Assembly: GCA_023484515.1 (NCBI GenBank)
Contig: JAMDAY010000017.1
Span: forward strand, 1-36,958
From: Patescibacteria group bacterium
GTDB taxonomy: Bacteria > Patescibacteriota > Doudnabacteria > UBA920
Direction of reading: 5' to 3'
DNA: 36,958 bases
Below the pieces are notes generated by a model that searched no databases, was not told where the DNA came from, and saw only the letters and a list, made by a program, of their open reading frames with translations. Of the stretch, positions 1,162 through 34,149 are shown piece after piece. Numbering within the stretch: the stretch's first letter is position 1; each line of letters begins with the position of its first letter. Position numbers and translations under genes: made by a program.

Positions 1162-1299
1162 GTAACTGCCCACTGTGTCATTGCGAGTTTTTCAGGGCTT
1201 TAACTGAAAAACAAAGCAATCTTTTCCTGGTTAGGATTGCCGCGGCCTCATATTTTAAAGCTAAAAATATGAGGCCTCGCAATGACAGTGAGCAGTTAC
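1162..1299. repeat. TGTCATTGCGAG palindromic element, cloverleaf-like intergenic copy
   Basis: The outer arms at 1162-1187 and 1276-1299 pair over about 24 bases (GTAACTGC-Y-CACTG, then TCATTGCGAG). Three hairpins lie between them: 1188-1195 with 1204-1211 (TTTTTCAG), 1216-1221 with 1235-1240 (GCAATC), and 1244-1256 with 1264-1276 (GGCCTCATATTTT). The whole element folds on paper as a four-way cloverleaf. Related elements lie inside murD (1799-1923) and the uvrD-like gene (31895-31971). The arm sequence resembles short palindromic repeats that I know from several unrelated bacteria. Confidence 0.8.
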
Positions 1300-1357: not shown

Positions 1358-2905
1358 ATGGAAATAAAAGATCTTAAGGACAAATTAGTGGCAGTTTTAG
1401 GTTTCGGCCAGGAAGGGCGGTCGGTTACGGAGTATTTGATTAAACACGGGATAAAGCCGGTGCTGTTTGACCAAAAACCCTGGGAAGAGTGGTCAAGCGA
1501 AGAAAAAGAATACATAAGGTCGTTAAAAATAAATTTTATTTTCGGAACCGGATATTTGCAGGAACTAAAGGGGTTTGACGTGGCATTTCGCAGTCCGGGG
1601 ATTAGATTACATGATATAGCGCAAGCTATTGGCCTGCCTTCCCGCAGTGAAGCGACAGGACTGCATTACACCAGTCATAATATTGCCATTACCAGCCAAA
1701 CCAAATGGTTTTTCCAGCATTGTCCTGCTAAAATTATCGGAGTTACGGGCACCAAAGGCAAAGGTACTACGGCCAGCTTGATTTATGAGATGCTTTCAGT
1801 GTCATTGCGAGGAGCAGCATCAGCTTTTTCTAAGGCGACGAAGCAATTTCTTCCATTGGATGTTAAGATTATTTCGTCGGCGCACGATGATATTGCAAAT
1901 AATGCGCCTCCTCGCAACGACACAAGGGGTGGAGCATATTTAACAGGCAATATCGGTAAAACCCAGCCTTTGGAAATTTTGGACAATTTAAATCCGGATG
2001 ACTGGGTGGTTTACGAATTGTCCAGCTTCCAATTGCAGGACCTTAAGCGCAGTCCGCATATTGGCGTTGTATTAATGGTCACACAGGAACATTTGGATTA
2101 TCATCAGAATGCTGTAGAATACAGGGAAGCCAAAGCTCCCATCGCAAAATTCCAATCAGCCGGCGATTTTGCGGTGATAAATGCGGATTATCAAGAGTCG
2201 TTAAAAATCGGAGAGCAGGGAAAAGGGCAAAAATATTATTTCAGCAGGGAAAAAGAGGTGGAAAAAGGCTGTTATGTAAAAAATGGGCAAATTATCGTAA
2301 AAGGCATAGGCGAATCCAATTTCCAATATCCAATTTCCAATATCCAATTGCGCGGCCGGCACAACCTGGAAAATATCTGCGCTGCGGCCGCTGCTTCCGC
2401 TTTAGCCGGCGTTGATACCAATTCCATAAAATCAGCATTGCAAAATTTCAAAGGCCTGGAGCACCGCCTGGAATTTGTAGCGGAAAAGAATGGCATAAAA
2501 TTTTATAACGACTCTTTTTCCACCACGCCGGAAACGGCCATTGCCGCCATAAATTCTTTTTCAGAACCCTTGGTTGTTATTTTAGGAGGATCTTCCAAAT
2601 TTGCGGATTTTACGGACCTGGGCCGGACAATTGCAGAAACAAAAAACATCAAGGCCTTGGTATTAACCGGCCAAGAAGCCGGCAGGATTAAGGAAGCGAT
2701 TTTTAAGGCGGGAAAGGCCCTGCCAAAAATTATGGAAGGAGCGGCAAACATGAAGGGCATTTTTACACAGGCATTATCAGCCGCCCAAAAAGGGGACGTA
2801 GTGCTGCTAAGCCCGGCTTGCGCTTCATTCGGCATGTTCAAAAATTACAAGGACAGGGGAGAGCAATTTAAGCGGTTTGCAGAGTCTTTACAGAATACGG
2901 ATTGA
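1358..2905 (+). CDS. murD: UDP-N-acetylmuramoylalanine--D-glutamate ligase
   Basis: MurD adds D-glutamate to UDP-MurNAc-L-alanine in the cytoplasm, the second amino-acid step of peptidoglycan precursor synthesis. The N-terminal nucleotide-fold reads VAVLGFGQEGRS. The ATP loop is TGTKGKGTT at about residue 131, followed by GNIGKTQPLE, then HRLEFV and NDSFSTTPE in the C-terminal domain. At 515 residues it is longer than the usual 440-460. Much of the excess is an in-frame palindromic element (1799-1923) between the P-loop helix and GNIG, and a further short piece is a heptad repeat (2314-2348). I chose the ATG at 1358 over 1343 because of the promoter position and because MEIKDLKDKLVAVLG matches the usual start. 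The gene ends in TGA. Downstream ftsW and murJ form a wall-synthesis block with it. Substrate D-Glu would come from MurI at 15734. Confidence 0.93.
   Translation: MEIKDLKDKLVAVLGFGQEGRSVTEYLIKHGIKPVLFDQKPWEEWSSEEKEYIRSLKINFIFGTGYLQELKGFDVAFRSPGIRLHDIAQAIGLPSRSEATGLHYTSHNIAITSQTKWFFQHCPAKIIGVTGTKGKGTTASLIYEMLSVSLRGAASAFSKATKQFLPLDVKIISSAHDDIANNAPPRNDTRGGAYLTGNIGKTQPLEILDNLNPDDWVVYELSSFQLQDLKRSPHIGVVLMVTQEHLDYHQNAVEYREAKAPIAKFQSAGDFAVINADYQESLKIGEQGKGQKYYFSREKEVEKGCYVKNGQIIVKGIGESNFQYPISNIQLRGRHNLENICAAAAASALAGVDTNSIKSALQNFKGLEHRLEFVAEKNGIKFYNDSFSTTPETAIAAINSFSEPLVVILGGSSKFADFTDLGRTIAETKNIKALVLTGQEAGRIKEAIFKAGKALPKIMEGAANMKGIFTQALSAAQKGDVVLLSPACASFGMFKNYKDRGEQFKRFAESLQNTD
1799..1923. repeat. 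TGTCATTGCGAG palindromic element inserted in frame in murD
   Basis: The arm GTGTCATTGCGAGGA (1799-1813) pairs with TCCTCGCAACGACAC (1909-1923) with one mismatch. An inner hairpin joins GCGACGAA near 1834 to TTCGTCGGC near 1873. The translation (SVSLRG ... APPRNDT) has no counterpart in ordinary MurD proteins that I know, while the MurD sequence resumes directly after it. Confidence 0.8.
2314..2348. repeat. five tandem heptads WTCCAAT inside murD
   Basis: The units are ATCCAAT, TTCCAAT, ATCCAAT, TTCCAAT, ATCCAAT. They encode SNFQYPISNIQL. A four-unit version of the same heptad sits inside lepA at 8254-8281. Confidence 0.8.
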
Positions 2906-30741: not shown

Positions 30742-31010
30742 ACAATTTAGAAAAAATAAGCCACTTTCCGTTTCGAGGCAATCAAGTGGCAAATGCTGAT
30801 GATCTTGACGGAGCCAGTATAATAATGGCAGGAATAATTTTTCAGCTTGAAAGATTGGCTGGCGATTCTTTCGGACAACTCTATAAAACAAGGGAACGTA
30901 CAGACTTAGGACCACTTTCTTATTATTATTTTAGAAATACCTTTTTACTTCGTAAAGTCTGCGAACTGGCCCGTCTCTTGCAGGACCGAAGAATAAAAAA
31001 TAATGTCTAA
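30666..31010 (+). CDS. unknown protein, possibly the back half of a frameshifted gene
   Basis: 114 residues from a TTG at 30666. The frame is already open from about 30607, reading RGDTANITAADTFENLGLP, with a good AGAGGAGAT (30619-30627) but no proper start codon behind it. The C-terminal part (LDGASIIMAGIIFQLERLAG, then YYYFRNTFLLRKVCELARLL) looks like a folded helical domain. It overlaps uvrD by eight bases. No family recognised. Confidence 0.45.
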   Translation: MGLPQSCFRKKQTDKDFIQNIAKSLDNLEKISHFPFRGNQVANADDLDGASIIMAGIIFQLERLAGDSFGQLYKTRERTDLGPLSYYYFRNTFLLRKVCELARLLQDRRIKNNV

Positions 31011-34000
31011 TCTACTAGAAAATTTAAATAAAGAACAAACCGAAGCCGTTACACACACAAAAGGGCCTTTACTGATTGTGGCCGGGGCGGGGACGGGCAA
31101 GACTACGGTGATTACCAGGAAGATTGCCTATTTAATAGAACAAGGGCTGGCCAAACCGGATGAGATACTGGCTTTGACGTTTACGGAAAAGGCGGCCGGG
31201 GAAATGCGGGAGCGCGCGGACATTCTTTTGCCCCTGGGGTATTACGATATGTGGATTTCCACATTCCACAGCTTTTGCCAGAGAATCCTTGACCAGCACG
31301 GCCTGGACATTGGCCTGCCAGGGGATTTTAAAATTTTAACCGAAACGCAGCAGTGGATTTTAATCCATAATAATTTGGATAAATTTAATCTTGATTACTA
31401 CCGCCCCCTGGGCAACCCGAAAAAATTTATTTCCGCGCTGCTGAAGCATTTTTCCAAATGCAAGGACGAACTGATTACGCCGGCCGAATACTTGGAATAT
31501 GCGCAAAGCTTGAGGCTGCGGACGGATATGCCGGAAAAGACTAAGCGCATAGCGCTAAGCGCTAAGAAAAAAAACAAGGTAAACAGGGATCAACAAACCG
31601 CAGTCCTTATCCCCAGCCCCTTAACTCTTAACCCTGACATTGACGAGACCGAAATTGCCAGGCTTGAGGAAGTCGCCAATGCCTACCACGTCTATCAAAA
31701 ATTGCTTTTAGACAATAATTCTCTGGACTTTGCGGACTTGATAAATTATACTTTGGAGTTGTTTAAAAAACGGCCGAAAATTTTATCCCATTACCAAAAT
31801 AAGTTTAAATATATCCTGGTAGATGAGTTCCAGGACACAAATTATGCGCAATATCAATTGGTAAAACTACTAACAATGGTATCTGCTCAATCGATGTCAT
31901 CGCGAGTGCAGCCGAAGCGATCTTTATCCGGAGAAAAGATTGCTTTGTCGGATGCGCTCCTCGCAATGACACCCCCTTCCCATTTCAACCTCACCGTGGT
32001 CGGCGACGACGACCAGTCAATTTACAAATTTCGCGGCGCTTCGGTTTCTAACATTTTAAAATTCCAGGAAGACTTCCCCGATTTAAAGCAAACTACCCTG
32101 GTGGAAAACTACCGCAGCAGCCAGGAAATTTTGGATTTGGCTTATAATTTCATCCAGCTCAATAATCCCGACAGGCTGGAAGTTAAATTAAAAATTGACA
32201 AGCGGTTAAAATCGCGAAACAGTCCGGAAAAACCTAATTTTTCATCTTTTTTAGATAATCACCATTCGGAGAGCGCGGTTCAGGTCTTGGAAGGCAAAGA
32301 TTTAAGCGATGAATTAAACGGCGTGGCAAAAAAGATTTTGGAACTTAAATCCCAAAACCCCAAACAATCTTGGAACGATTTTGCAATACTTATTAGGAGC
32401 AATTCCGCATCTGACGAACTATTGCCCATCCTGTCGTCTTATGGCATTCCGCACACCTTTGTCTCCAGTACCGGCCTGTATAAAAAACCTTTAATAGCCA
32501 ATCTGATCGCTTACATGAAGCTGCTGGGCAATTTTCACGATTCCCTCAGCTTATACCGGGTTTTAACTTTTGCAGATTTCGGGATTAAGCCAAAAGACTT
32601 GTCCACCCTAATGGAGCTTTCCGTAAAAAAAACTTTGTCCCTCTACGAAGTGTTGCAGCAAGCCCAGGCCCTGCCTGAAGCGGATGCGGAAACGAAGAGT
32701 AAGATTACGGAATTCCTGGAAATCTTGCATTGCCACGCCCGCGAAAGCCAGGCCAAGGCCGCCACGGAAGTATTTGTAGACATTATTGACGGCTTAAAAT
32801 TAAGAAGTAAGCTGGAAGCGTCAAGTTTGGAAAATGCGGAAAACCGCGAATTGTTGGAGCAGTTTTACAAAAAAATGGAAAGTTTTGTGCAGGAAAATGC
32901 CGACAAGAGCCTGCATTACTTTTTGCATCTGCTGGACCTGGAACTGGAGGCCGGGGACGAAGGGCAGATAAAGTTTGACCCGAATTTGGGGCCGGAAAAC
33001 CTTAAGGTTTTAACCGTACACGCGGCCAAGGGCCTGGAATTTGCCTATGTCTTTATTGTTAACCTGGTAGACCAAAGGTTCCCGACCCGCGCGCGCAAAG
33101 ACCAGATAGAAATCCCTTCCGCGCTGGTCAAAGACATTTTGCCGGAAGGCGATTTCCATTTGCAGGAGGAACGTCGCCTTTTTTACGTTTCCCTGACCAG
33201 GGCCAAACAAAAACTTTTCCTAACCTGGGCCAAGGATTACGGCGGCAAAACGCTAAAAAAACCTTCGCAGTTCCTGCTGGAAACGCATCTGGTGCCGGGC
33301 GAAAAAGTAAGCGCCGCCACCGGCAAGGTAATTTTTACAAAAGTTGAACAGCGCCCCGCAGTATACCGCGACCTGCCCAAAAATTTTTCGTTTTCCGCCA
33401 TTAAATCCTTTAAAAATTGCCCTTTGGAATATAAATATAAATATTTTTTGAAATTTCCGGCCAAGGGCAACCATTATTTAAGTTTTGGCCAGACTATCCA
33501 CGCCACATTTGAACTGTTCTTGAAAGATTTTCAAAACCGTTTAAACTCCAAACAGCGGGATCTGTTCGGCGGAGATAGCGGCAGAATAGAAACCGGCTCG
33601 TTTGAATTGCTGGAGGAGCTTTACCGAAAAAATTGGGTGGATGAATGGTATTTAAACAAGGAGGACAAGGAAAAATACCGTAAAAGGGGTTTGGATATGC
33701 TCAAAATTTTTTATGCCGATACTAAAATAAATCCTCCCGCGCCAAAATATATTGAGCAAAGATTCAGTTTAAAATTAGGCGACTACTCTTTTAACGGAAA
33801 AATTGACCGGGCAGACCTGCTGCCTAGCGGCGGTTTGAAAATTTTGGATTACAAAACTTCGGAAAAAGTTCCTAAAAAGGCCGCCAAAGACGACTTGGAC
33901 CAACTGTACATTTACCAGTGGGCGGCGCAGGAATTTTTAAACGAAAAAGTTTCAGAACTGTCCTACTGGTACTTAAACGAAAACAAAATAGTCCCGGAAG

Positions 34001-34149
34001 AAATTGCTCCCGAAGAGAAAATTGCAAAACTAAAAAATAGCCTTTTTGAAACCATTGAATTAATTAATTACACCATTGAGCACGATCTTTTCAGGCAAGA
34101 ACATGCCAAGCTCCGCGACCACAAGTGCCAATACGAAGGGCTGGAATAA
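31003..34149 (+). CDS. UvrD/Rep-family DNA helicase fused to a PD-(D/E)XK nuclease
   Basis: 1048-residue superfamily 1A helicase with a C-terminal RecB/AddB-like nuclease. Motifs in order: Q motif NLNKEQTEAV, Walker A AGAGTGKTT (about 27-35), Walker B VDEFQDTN (about 273), motif III VVGDDDQSIYKFRGA (about 332), NYRSSQEIL, TVHAAKGLEFAYVFIV and RRLFYVSLTRAKQKL. The nuclease domain starts at FSFSAIKSFKNCPLEYKYKY (about 793); the metal site is IDRAD and KILDYKTSEK (about 945), with a Q-x3-Y motif, DQLYIYQWA. This architecture suits double-strand break processing. There are two unusual insertions: residues about 180-210 (variable, Pro-rich) and 298-323, a palindromic repeat element translated in frame. 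Confidence 0.92.
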   Translation: MSNLLENLNKEQTEAVTHTKGPLLIVAGAGTGKTTVITRKIAYLIEQGLAKPDEILALTFTEKAAGEMRERADILLPLGYYDMWISTFHSFCQRILDQHGLDIGLPGDFKILTETQQWILIHNNLDKFNLDYYRPLGNPKKFISALLKHFSKCKDELITPAEYLEYAQSLRLRTDMPEKTKRIALSAKKKNKVNRDQQTAVLIPSPLTLNPDIDETEIARLEEVANAYHVYQKLLLDNNSLDFADLINYTLELFKKRPKILSHYQNKFKYILVDEFQDTNYAQYQLVKLLTMVSAQSMSSRVQPKRSLSGEKIALSDALLAMTPPSHFNLTVVGDDDQSIYKFRGASVSNILKFQEDFPDLKQTTLVENYRSSQEILDLAYNFIQLNNPDRLEVKLKIDKRLKSRNSPEKPNFSSFLDNHHSESAVQVLEGKDLSDELNGVAKKILELKSQNPKQSWNDFAILIRSNSASDELLPILSSYGIPHTFVSSTGLYKKPLIANLIAYMKLLGNFHDSLSLYRVLTFADFGIKPKDLSTLMELSVKKTLSLYEVLQQAQALPEADAETKSKITEFLEILHCHARESQAKAATEVFVDIIDGLKLRSKLEASSLENAENRELLEQFYKKMESFVQENADKSLHYFLHLLDLELEAGDEGQIKFDPNLGPENLKVLTVHAAKGLEFAYVFIVNLVDQRFPTRARKDQIEIPSALVKDILPEGDFHLQEERRLFYVSLTRAKQKLFLTWAKDYGGKTLKKPSQFLLETHLVPGEKVSAATGKVIFTKVEQRPAVYRDLPKNFSFSAIKSFKNCPLEYKYKYFLKFPAKGNHYLSFGQTIHATFELFLKDFQNRLNSKQRDLFGGDSGRIETGSFELLEELYRKNWVDEWYLNKEDKEKYRKRGLDMLKIFYADTKINPPAPKYIEQRFSLKLGDYSFNGKIDRADLLPSGGLKILDYKTSEKVPKKAAKDDLDQLYIYQWAAQEFLNEKVSELSYWYLNENKIVPEEIAPEEKIAKLKNSLFETIELINYTIEHDLFRQEHAKLRDHKCQYEGLE
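31895..31971. repeat. TGTCATTGCGAG palindromic element inserted in frame in the uvrD-like gene
   Basis: TGTCATCGCGAG (31895-31906) pairs with CTCGCAATGACA (31960-31971) with one mismatch. The inner stem pairs AGCGATCTTT with AAAAGATTGCTTT. It is translated as SSRVQPKRSLSGEKIALSDA and so on, just before the strand NLTVVGDDDQSIY. Related to 1162-1299 and 1799-1923. Confidence 0.82.

Follow-up and report, generated by a model that had tools for sequence, protein, structure and literature searches.

In-frame palindromes in protein genes were first reported in Rickettsia, and afterwards in scattered genomes rich in REP sequences. The Rickettsia elements (RPEs; Ogata et al. 2000, 2002, via PMC10969869 and PMC2229807) are summarized there as palindromes of ~100–150 bp with inverted ends of ~12 bp, which lie in frame in unrelated conserved genes whose proteins tolerate the insert. 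For one enzyme modified by an RPE, both translation and activity have been reported (PMC2229807). The super-family of CGTC/TGTC-tagged REPs (Di Nocera et al. 2013, PMC3733652) is characterized by a YGTC tag, a stem starting with AT and an arrangement mostly in head-to-head dimers. The published families have stems of 8–9 bp, loops of 4–5 nt and CCA-like tails. Intragenic copies of them lie in genes of DNA repair, UvrD/REP helicases among these. They are described without a dedicated transposase, and what moves them is a question raised in that paper. Two RPEs, RPE-6 and RPE-4, have been classed there as CGTC-1 and CGTC-4.

Here we have analysed a palindromic element in a stretch of 36,958 nucleotides (the window) from a Patescibacteria genome (G000, 1.30 Mb in 36 contigs). 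It lies inside a UvrD/PcrA-like helicase gene. Judging from the sequence, it is very probably a dispersed, YGTC-tagged, REP-like hairpin repeat, which has inserted into the gene and has been kept because the frame stayed open and the loop between motifs II and III is floppy. To us the most interesting points are that the same protein loops are reused by different repeat families, and that many copies occur in genomes without a Y1_Tnp match.

Comparison with described repeats

The window element resembles the CGTC REPs in its tag, in the AT start of its stem, in its dimers, in having intragenic copies that include one in a UvrD-like helicase, and in having no flanked transposase. It differs from them by a base stem of 5 bp, where a stem of 8–9 bp was not found, by the internal step GAG/GAA and by an apical hairpin that is both long and variable. 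In addition, its tail is CT, unlike the CCA of the CGTC REPs (the family of a related genome, G011, does end in CCA), and its host belongs to the Patescibacteria, with the pattern present in many other phyla as well. Since tag, stem start, dimers and the lack of a transposase agree while the 8–9 bp stem, the small loop and the CCA tail do not, we describe the element as a variant and not as a member of any of the published CGTC families, a comparison made by description and not by consensus sequence.

With the RPEs, the window family shares the habit of in-frame insertion into conserved protein genes that are not related to one another (here seven genes and one remnant). The hosts are different, Patescibacteria versus Rickettsia, and the sequences would differ as well. 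Moreover, the accounts of RPEs speak of a conserved peptide that they encode; the window family uses several frames. The RAYT-associated GTAG REPs are hairpin repeats too, and some lie in frame in genes of relatives (the GTAGGGGCGG palindrome in the helicase of G003); they carry the tag GTAG and accompany Y1 transposases, while the window element does neither. Literature searches with the 12-mer of the element and related strings returned unrelated papers only, and no Patescibacteria-specific account of such repeats was found in the literature searched.

The element in the helicase gene

The sequence-only reading had reported an in-frame hairpin element in a uvrD-like gene just before the sequence VVGDDDQSIY. 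Both arms were indeed located within the open frame of the gene (Table 1), the left arm TGTCATCGCGAG at 31895–31906 and the right arm CTCGCAATGACA at 31960–31971. The element ends directly before VVGDDDQSIY and adds ~26 predicted residues to the helicase. The base stem of its left unit, ATCGC/GCGAT, is a compensated change relative to ATTGC/GCAAT. The folding energy around the element is -22.8 kcal/mol, which is the lowest among windows of equal length in the helicase gene.

Table 1 Positions of the element, its units and related features in the window
Feature	Position	Strand	Remark
Host gene, UvrD/PcrA-like helicase, 1048 aa, with C-terminal RecB-type nuclease region (AddA/AdnB-like)	31003..34149	+	open frame, structural matches
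Palindromic element, 77 bp, two inverted units, in-frame translation MSSRVQPKRSLSGEKIALSDALLAMT	31895..31971	.	
Left unit, TGTC-ATCGC-GAG-TGCAGCC-GAA-GCGAT-CT	31895..31923	+	
Right unit, inverted, TGTC-ATTGC-GAG-GAGCGCATCCGAC-AAA-GCAAT-CT	31937..31971	-	
Enlarged loop, motif II to motif III, residues 292-328	31876..31986	+	~5 residues in relatives
Element copy in frame within murD (gene 1343-2905)	1800..1922	.	
Intergenic copy, 56 bp upstream of murD	1176..1287	.	

The best structural matches of the helicase are PcrA/UvrD, and the helicase-nucleases AdnB and AddA match too. In the comparison with PcrA, the insert is placed between PcrA residues 239 and 245. Compared with relatives, the loop has ~33 additional residues. 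The palindrome accounts for ~26 of them, and the loop extends beyond the palindrome by ~22 bases of unassigned flank; part of the flanking sequence is thus left over. The structure model shows the insert as a coil of low confidence, with a helix on one side and a strand on the other. A location on the surface, which the sequence-only reading had proposed to test, is thereby supported indirectly. Segments of low confidence (178–210, 295–326 and 408–421) coincide with the three variable loops of the protein. Since the conserved stretch 336–347 is likewise of low confidence, the model supports the disorder of these loops without proving it. An Rfam search of the window gave tRNAs only, and a plasmid search returned a single partial helicase match.

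The repeat family and its conserved unit

The 12-mer TGTCATNGCGAG occurs 57 times in G000 at no more than one mismatch, versus 5 occurrences of a reversed-pattern control. In a looser search with two mismatches, confined to the window, the count is not above chance, and the exact matches form facing pairs. We have examined 24 element sites in G000, of which 21 have both inverted ends; the tally of coding and intergenic copies covers these 24 sites.

The consensus unit consists of TGTC, ATTGC, GAG, a variable apical hairpin, GAA and GCAAT, followed by CT, and units mostly form head-to-head pairs with a short spacer. All aligned units start with TGTC or CGTC, which is descriptive only, as the search pattern demanded the tag. 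The first two stem positions are complementary AT, mostly as ATTGC/GCAAT or ATCGC/GCGAT, with G-T at the first position in a few units. In G000, most apical parts are short stems of variable sequence with GAGTGCATCCGA or AGGGCTTTRTCT as the closing loop; others are just a short TGCATCC/TGCAGCC stretch. The pattern is present in at least the Chloroflexota, Bacteroidota, Desulfobacterota, Omnitrophota and Nitrospirota, the taxon counts in the reference genome collection being lower bounds.

We have counted pairs in the base and apical stems by script. In the base stem, 152 of 160 cells are paired with 5 double compensations, and 1 of 2000 shuffles is equally good. The mean apical stem in G000 is 4.8 within a unit and 3.0 between units, and for 64 units of other phyla it is 4.1 within and 2.5 between (0 of 200 shuffles reach the observed value in either set). 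Between the two outer arms of one copy, a deviation from the consensus in one is usually unmatched in the other. Since compensation is found inside units while the outer arms diverge without it, the single hairpin, and not the whole dimer, is by this pairing pattern the conserved unit.

These observations bear on the possibility that the element is a classical MITE with 12-bp terminal inverted repeats, moved by a DDE transposase. The outer arms TGTCATTGCGAG/CTCGCAATGACA do resemble terminal inverted repeats, and the entire window dimer can be folded as one long hairpin (-35.5 kcal/mol). Against this, compensation works within the unit while the outer arms often differ uncompensated, and copies often join units with unlike apical parts. 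Moreover, the target-site duplication expected of a DDE MITE was absent at every length from 2 to 10 in the flanks of 19 copies. We have therefore rejected the classical MITE, which we consider highly improbable. The base preceding TGTC is G at 25 of 38 ends.

Several further arrangements were seen in the same genomes. The rpoB-rpoC spacer of G000 holds a compound copy of the element of 239 bp (L029:8968-9206), and intergenic compound arrays of near-identical units with common flank pieces, e.g., GACGCAATGACACGGGAC, occur at L013, L016, L024, L028 and L012. A second YGTC family in G000 has four near-identical units TGTCATTCCGGACAATTTGTAAGATATCAAATTGATCCGGAATCCA (C6:38688, C12:13917, C12:35539 and C17:3113). 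Base and apical parts look modular, since the apical GAGTGCATCCGA, or a close form of it, is shared by units of TGTCATTCC type in the relative G017 and units of TGTCATTGCGAG type in G000 and G003.

In-frame copies in conserved genes

In all, eight copies with both arms were found in frame, spread over seven conserved genes, i.e., uvrD-like, murD, a threonine-dehydrogenase-like gene (tdh-like, twice), carA, rsmI, an M24 peptidase gene and ymdB, and a remnant is found in an rluD-like gene. For a reduced Patescibacteria genome, in-frame palindromes are a common feature here, with no fewer than seven conserved genes affected. The inserted residues are absent from solved homologues of UvrD, MurD, RsmI, YmdB and CarA, and the murD insert is absent from murD of four relatives as well. 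In some relatives, the rsmI and M24 peptidase genes have short loops at the insert site.

Two of these sites have been hit again in other genomes. Inserts of TGTCATTGCGAG type occupy the M24 peptidase loop of both G003 and G010, and one of TGTCATTCC type is found in the rsmI loop of G017. As a separate observation, the murD loop that is occupied by the palindrome in G000 contains short tandem repeats in G003 and G010 (L240 and L238; ATTTCGAATTTCG and AAATCTCAAATCT).

According to the sequence-only reading, the helicase copy would use a different frame of the repeat from the murD copy. This holds for the right arms, with codons CTC GCA ATG ACA in uvrD versus.CT CGC AAC GAC A.. in murD, but the left arms, with codons ATG TCA TCG CGA and GTG TCA TTG CGA, respectively, are both read at offset 1 and hence in the same frame. 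Its broader argument, that the DNA or RNA element and not the peptide is copied, is borne out by the whole set. Over the eight intragenic copies, each of the three frames occurs in left arms (MSSR/VSLR, GVIA/SVIA and CHCE), and two occur in right arms (LAMT and RND), the third right-arm frame containing TGA and being unused. As several frames are used, it would be a nucleic-acid element that is copied, and a conserved peptide as the copied entity is rejected. Among the intergenic copies, 25 of 78 frames are open, which suggests that the tolerated intragenic copies are a filtered set.

Probable independent insertions in one helicase loop

We have compared the loop between motif II (DEFQDTN) and motif III (VVGDDDQSI) across the order. 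The distance is 19 residues in nearly all directly read relatives, versus 52 in the window gene. Among 44 long-form helicase genes, the loop is bare in 39 and interrupted in five (G000, G004, G007, G011 and G015). That is, the extra residues are wholly absent in those 39 genes, and homologous residues without the palindrome, which would have spoken against the sequence-only reading, were not observed. A class-level helicase search returned the identical 49 genomes to the order-level search, and in the short helicase paralogue no such break of the loop was seen.

The inserts at this loop are 19 to 37 residues long, and three of the five are palindromes of different families. The insert of G007 is TGTCATCCTGAG...GAAGGATC...CTCAGAATGAC, and TGTCATCCTGAG occurs 23 times in that genome, while a search of seven other genomes gave no copy. 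The insert of G011 is TGTCATTCCGG...CCGGAATCCAG...CCGGGATGACA; the TGTCATTCC..GGAATCCA family was found 57 times in G011, versus 0 to 11 times in the other genomes searched. The general layout of the G011 insert (TGTCATTCCGG..CCGGAATCCA) is as described for CGTC repeats, while both its genome and its sequence family are other than those of the window copy. It may be similar to dRS3 of Neisseria, among the CGTC-1 REPs. The inserts of G004 and G015 are not clearly palindromes of the YGTC class.

Since the family of each insert is the one common in its own genome, the sequences indicate independent insertions of different families at one permissive helicase loop. A single ancestral insertion, inherited by the family and since diverged, would account for the fact that interrupted loops are confined to one family of the order, with three of the five in one genus. 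Nevertheless, the repeat family differs between the inserts and is in each case the one common in the genome concerned, and the loop is bare in the nearest relative, G003, at 75–80% identity. A single ancestral insert has thus been rejected, as the families match each genome, and we give it very little credence.

Another explanation is that selection maintains the hairpin or the peptide in the helicase for a function, be it through mRNA structure, in regulation or in enzyme activity. Such a role would fit with the fact that this one loop is used repeatedly, and likewise with the recurrence of palindromic inserts in DNA repair genes of distant bacteria, including UvrD/REP helicases, in the account of PMC3733652. 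However, families, frames and lengths vary at this loop, most helicases of the order do without any insert there, and conserved genes outside DNA repair carry copies too, so that we regard a selected role as most improbable. 

Different families that land independently in the same helicase loop seem to provide a natural experiment on insertion-tolerant protein loops, and selfish DNA of this kind, which is known from elsewhere, may land in some protein loops again and again.

The helicase has two further variable loops, near residues 188–206 and 409–422, with palindromes in some relatives; a second TGTC dimer of the G011 helicase lies in one of them. In the G003 helicase (L212), an in-frame GTAG-type palindrome GTAGGGGCGGATCTCATCCGCCC...CTTCCCCTAC is found at about residues 188–209, and other inserts occur there in relatives.

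Presumed mobility of the repeats

In the reading that we favour, a REP-like hairpin repeat inserted in the helicase gene and tolerated there, copies would arise by transposition-like copying through a single-stranded hairpin, carried out by some enzyme that may since have been lost. Insertion would be broadly distributed, selection would retain in-frame copies in permissive loops only, and the peptide would be translated as a disordered, near-neutral loop.

Could the enzyme be a resident Y1 (RAYT or IS200-like) transposase, with the repeats being the REPs that it moves? Three Y1_Tnp genes are found in G000 (L029:2495-3196, L029:15254-15934 and L031:2490-2993), and head-to-head hairpin pairs without target duplication fit the single-strand chemistry of HuH enzymes. 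On the other side, the window family was not seen to enclose any Y1 gene in the manner of a REPtron: symmetric YGTC flanks were found at 0 of 17 Y1 genes of G000 and its relatives. Y1 genes with clear hairpins have their own ones instead, which are unrelated to the YGTC repeat, and this includes all three genes of G000. In addition, no Y1_Tnp match was obtained in G007, G011 and G015, all of which have YGTC repeats, and the copy number in such genomes is 11 to 57. For G007, with its 23 copies, an absence through missing sequence is less likely, as the genome is estimated to be 100% complete. Because these three genomes give no Y1_Tnp match, a resident RAYT is unlikely as the present mobiliser there, and we hold transposition of the window family by resident Y1 enzymes to be improbable in general.

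A lost enzyme or host enzymes are possible as the mobiliser. One specific form of this idea is that the YGTC palindromes of Patescibacteria spread without a transposase of their own, by host replication and repair enzymes acting on single-stranded hairpins, with the same few loops of DNA-repair and housekeeping enzymes as recurrent acceptor sites; we propose it only tentatively and regard it as rather unlikely. The question raised in PMC3733652 on the mobiliser of CGTC repeats is sharpened by these genomes: with 11 to 57 copies and without a Y1_Tnp match, they speak against a RAYT in residence, at least at present.

Apart from the YGTC repeats, each of the three Y1_Tnp genes of G000 has a hairpin of its own alongside and a related one in frame inside (GGGCACCATTGTG..CACAATGGTGCCC, CCCTTGAAGGGTCTCTTCAAGGG and GTAGGGGCGGATATTATCCGCCCCTAC).
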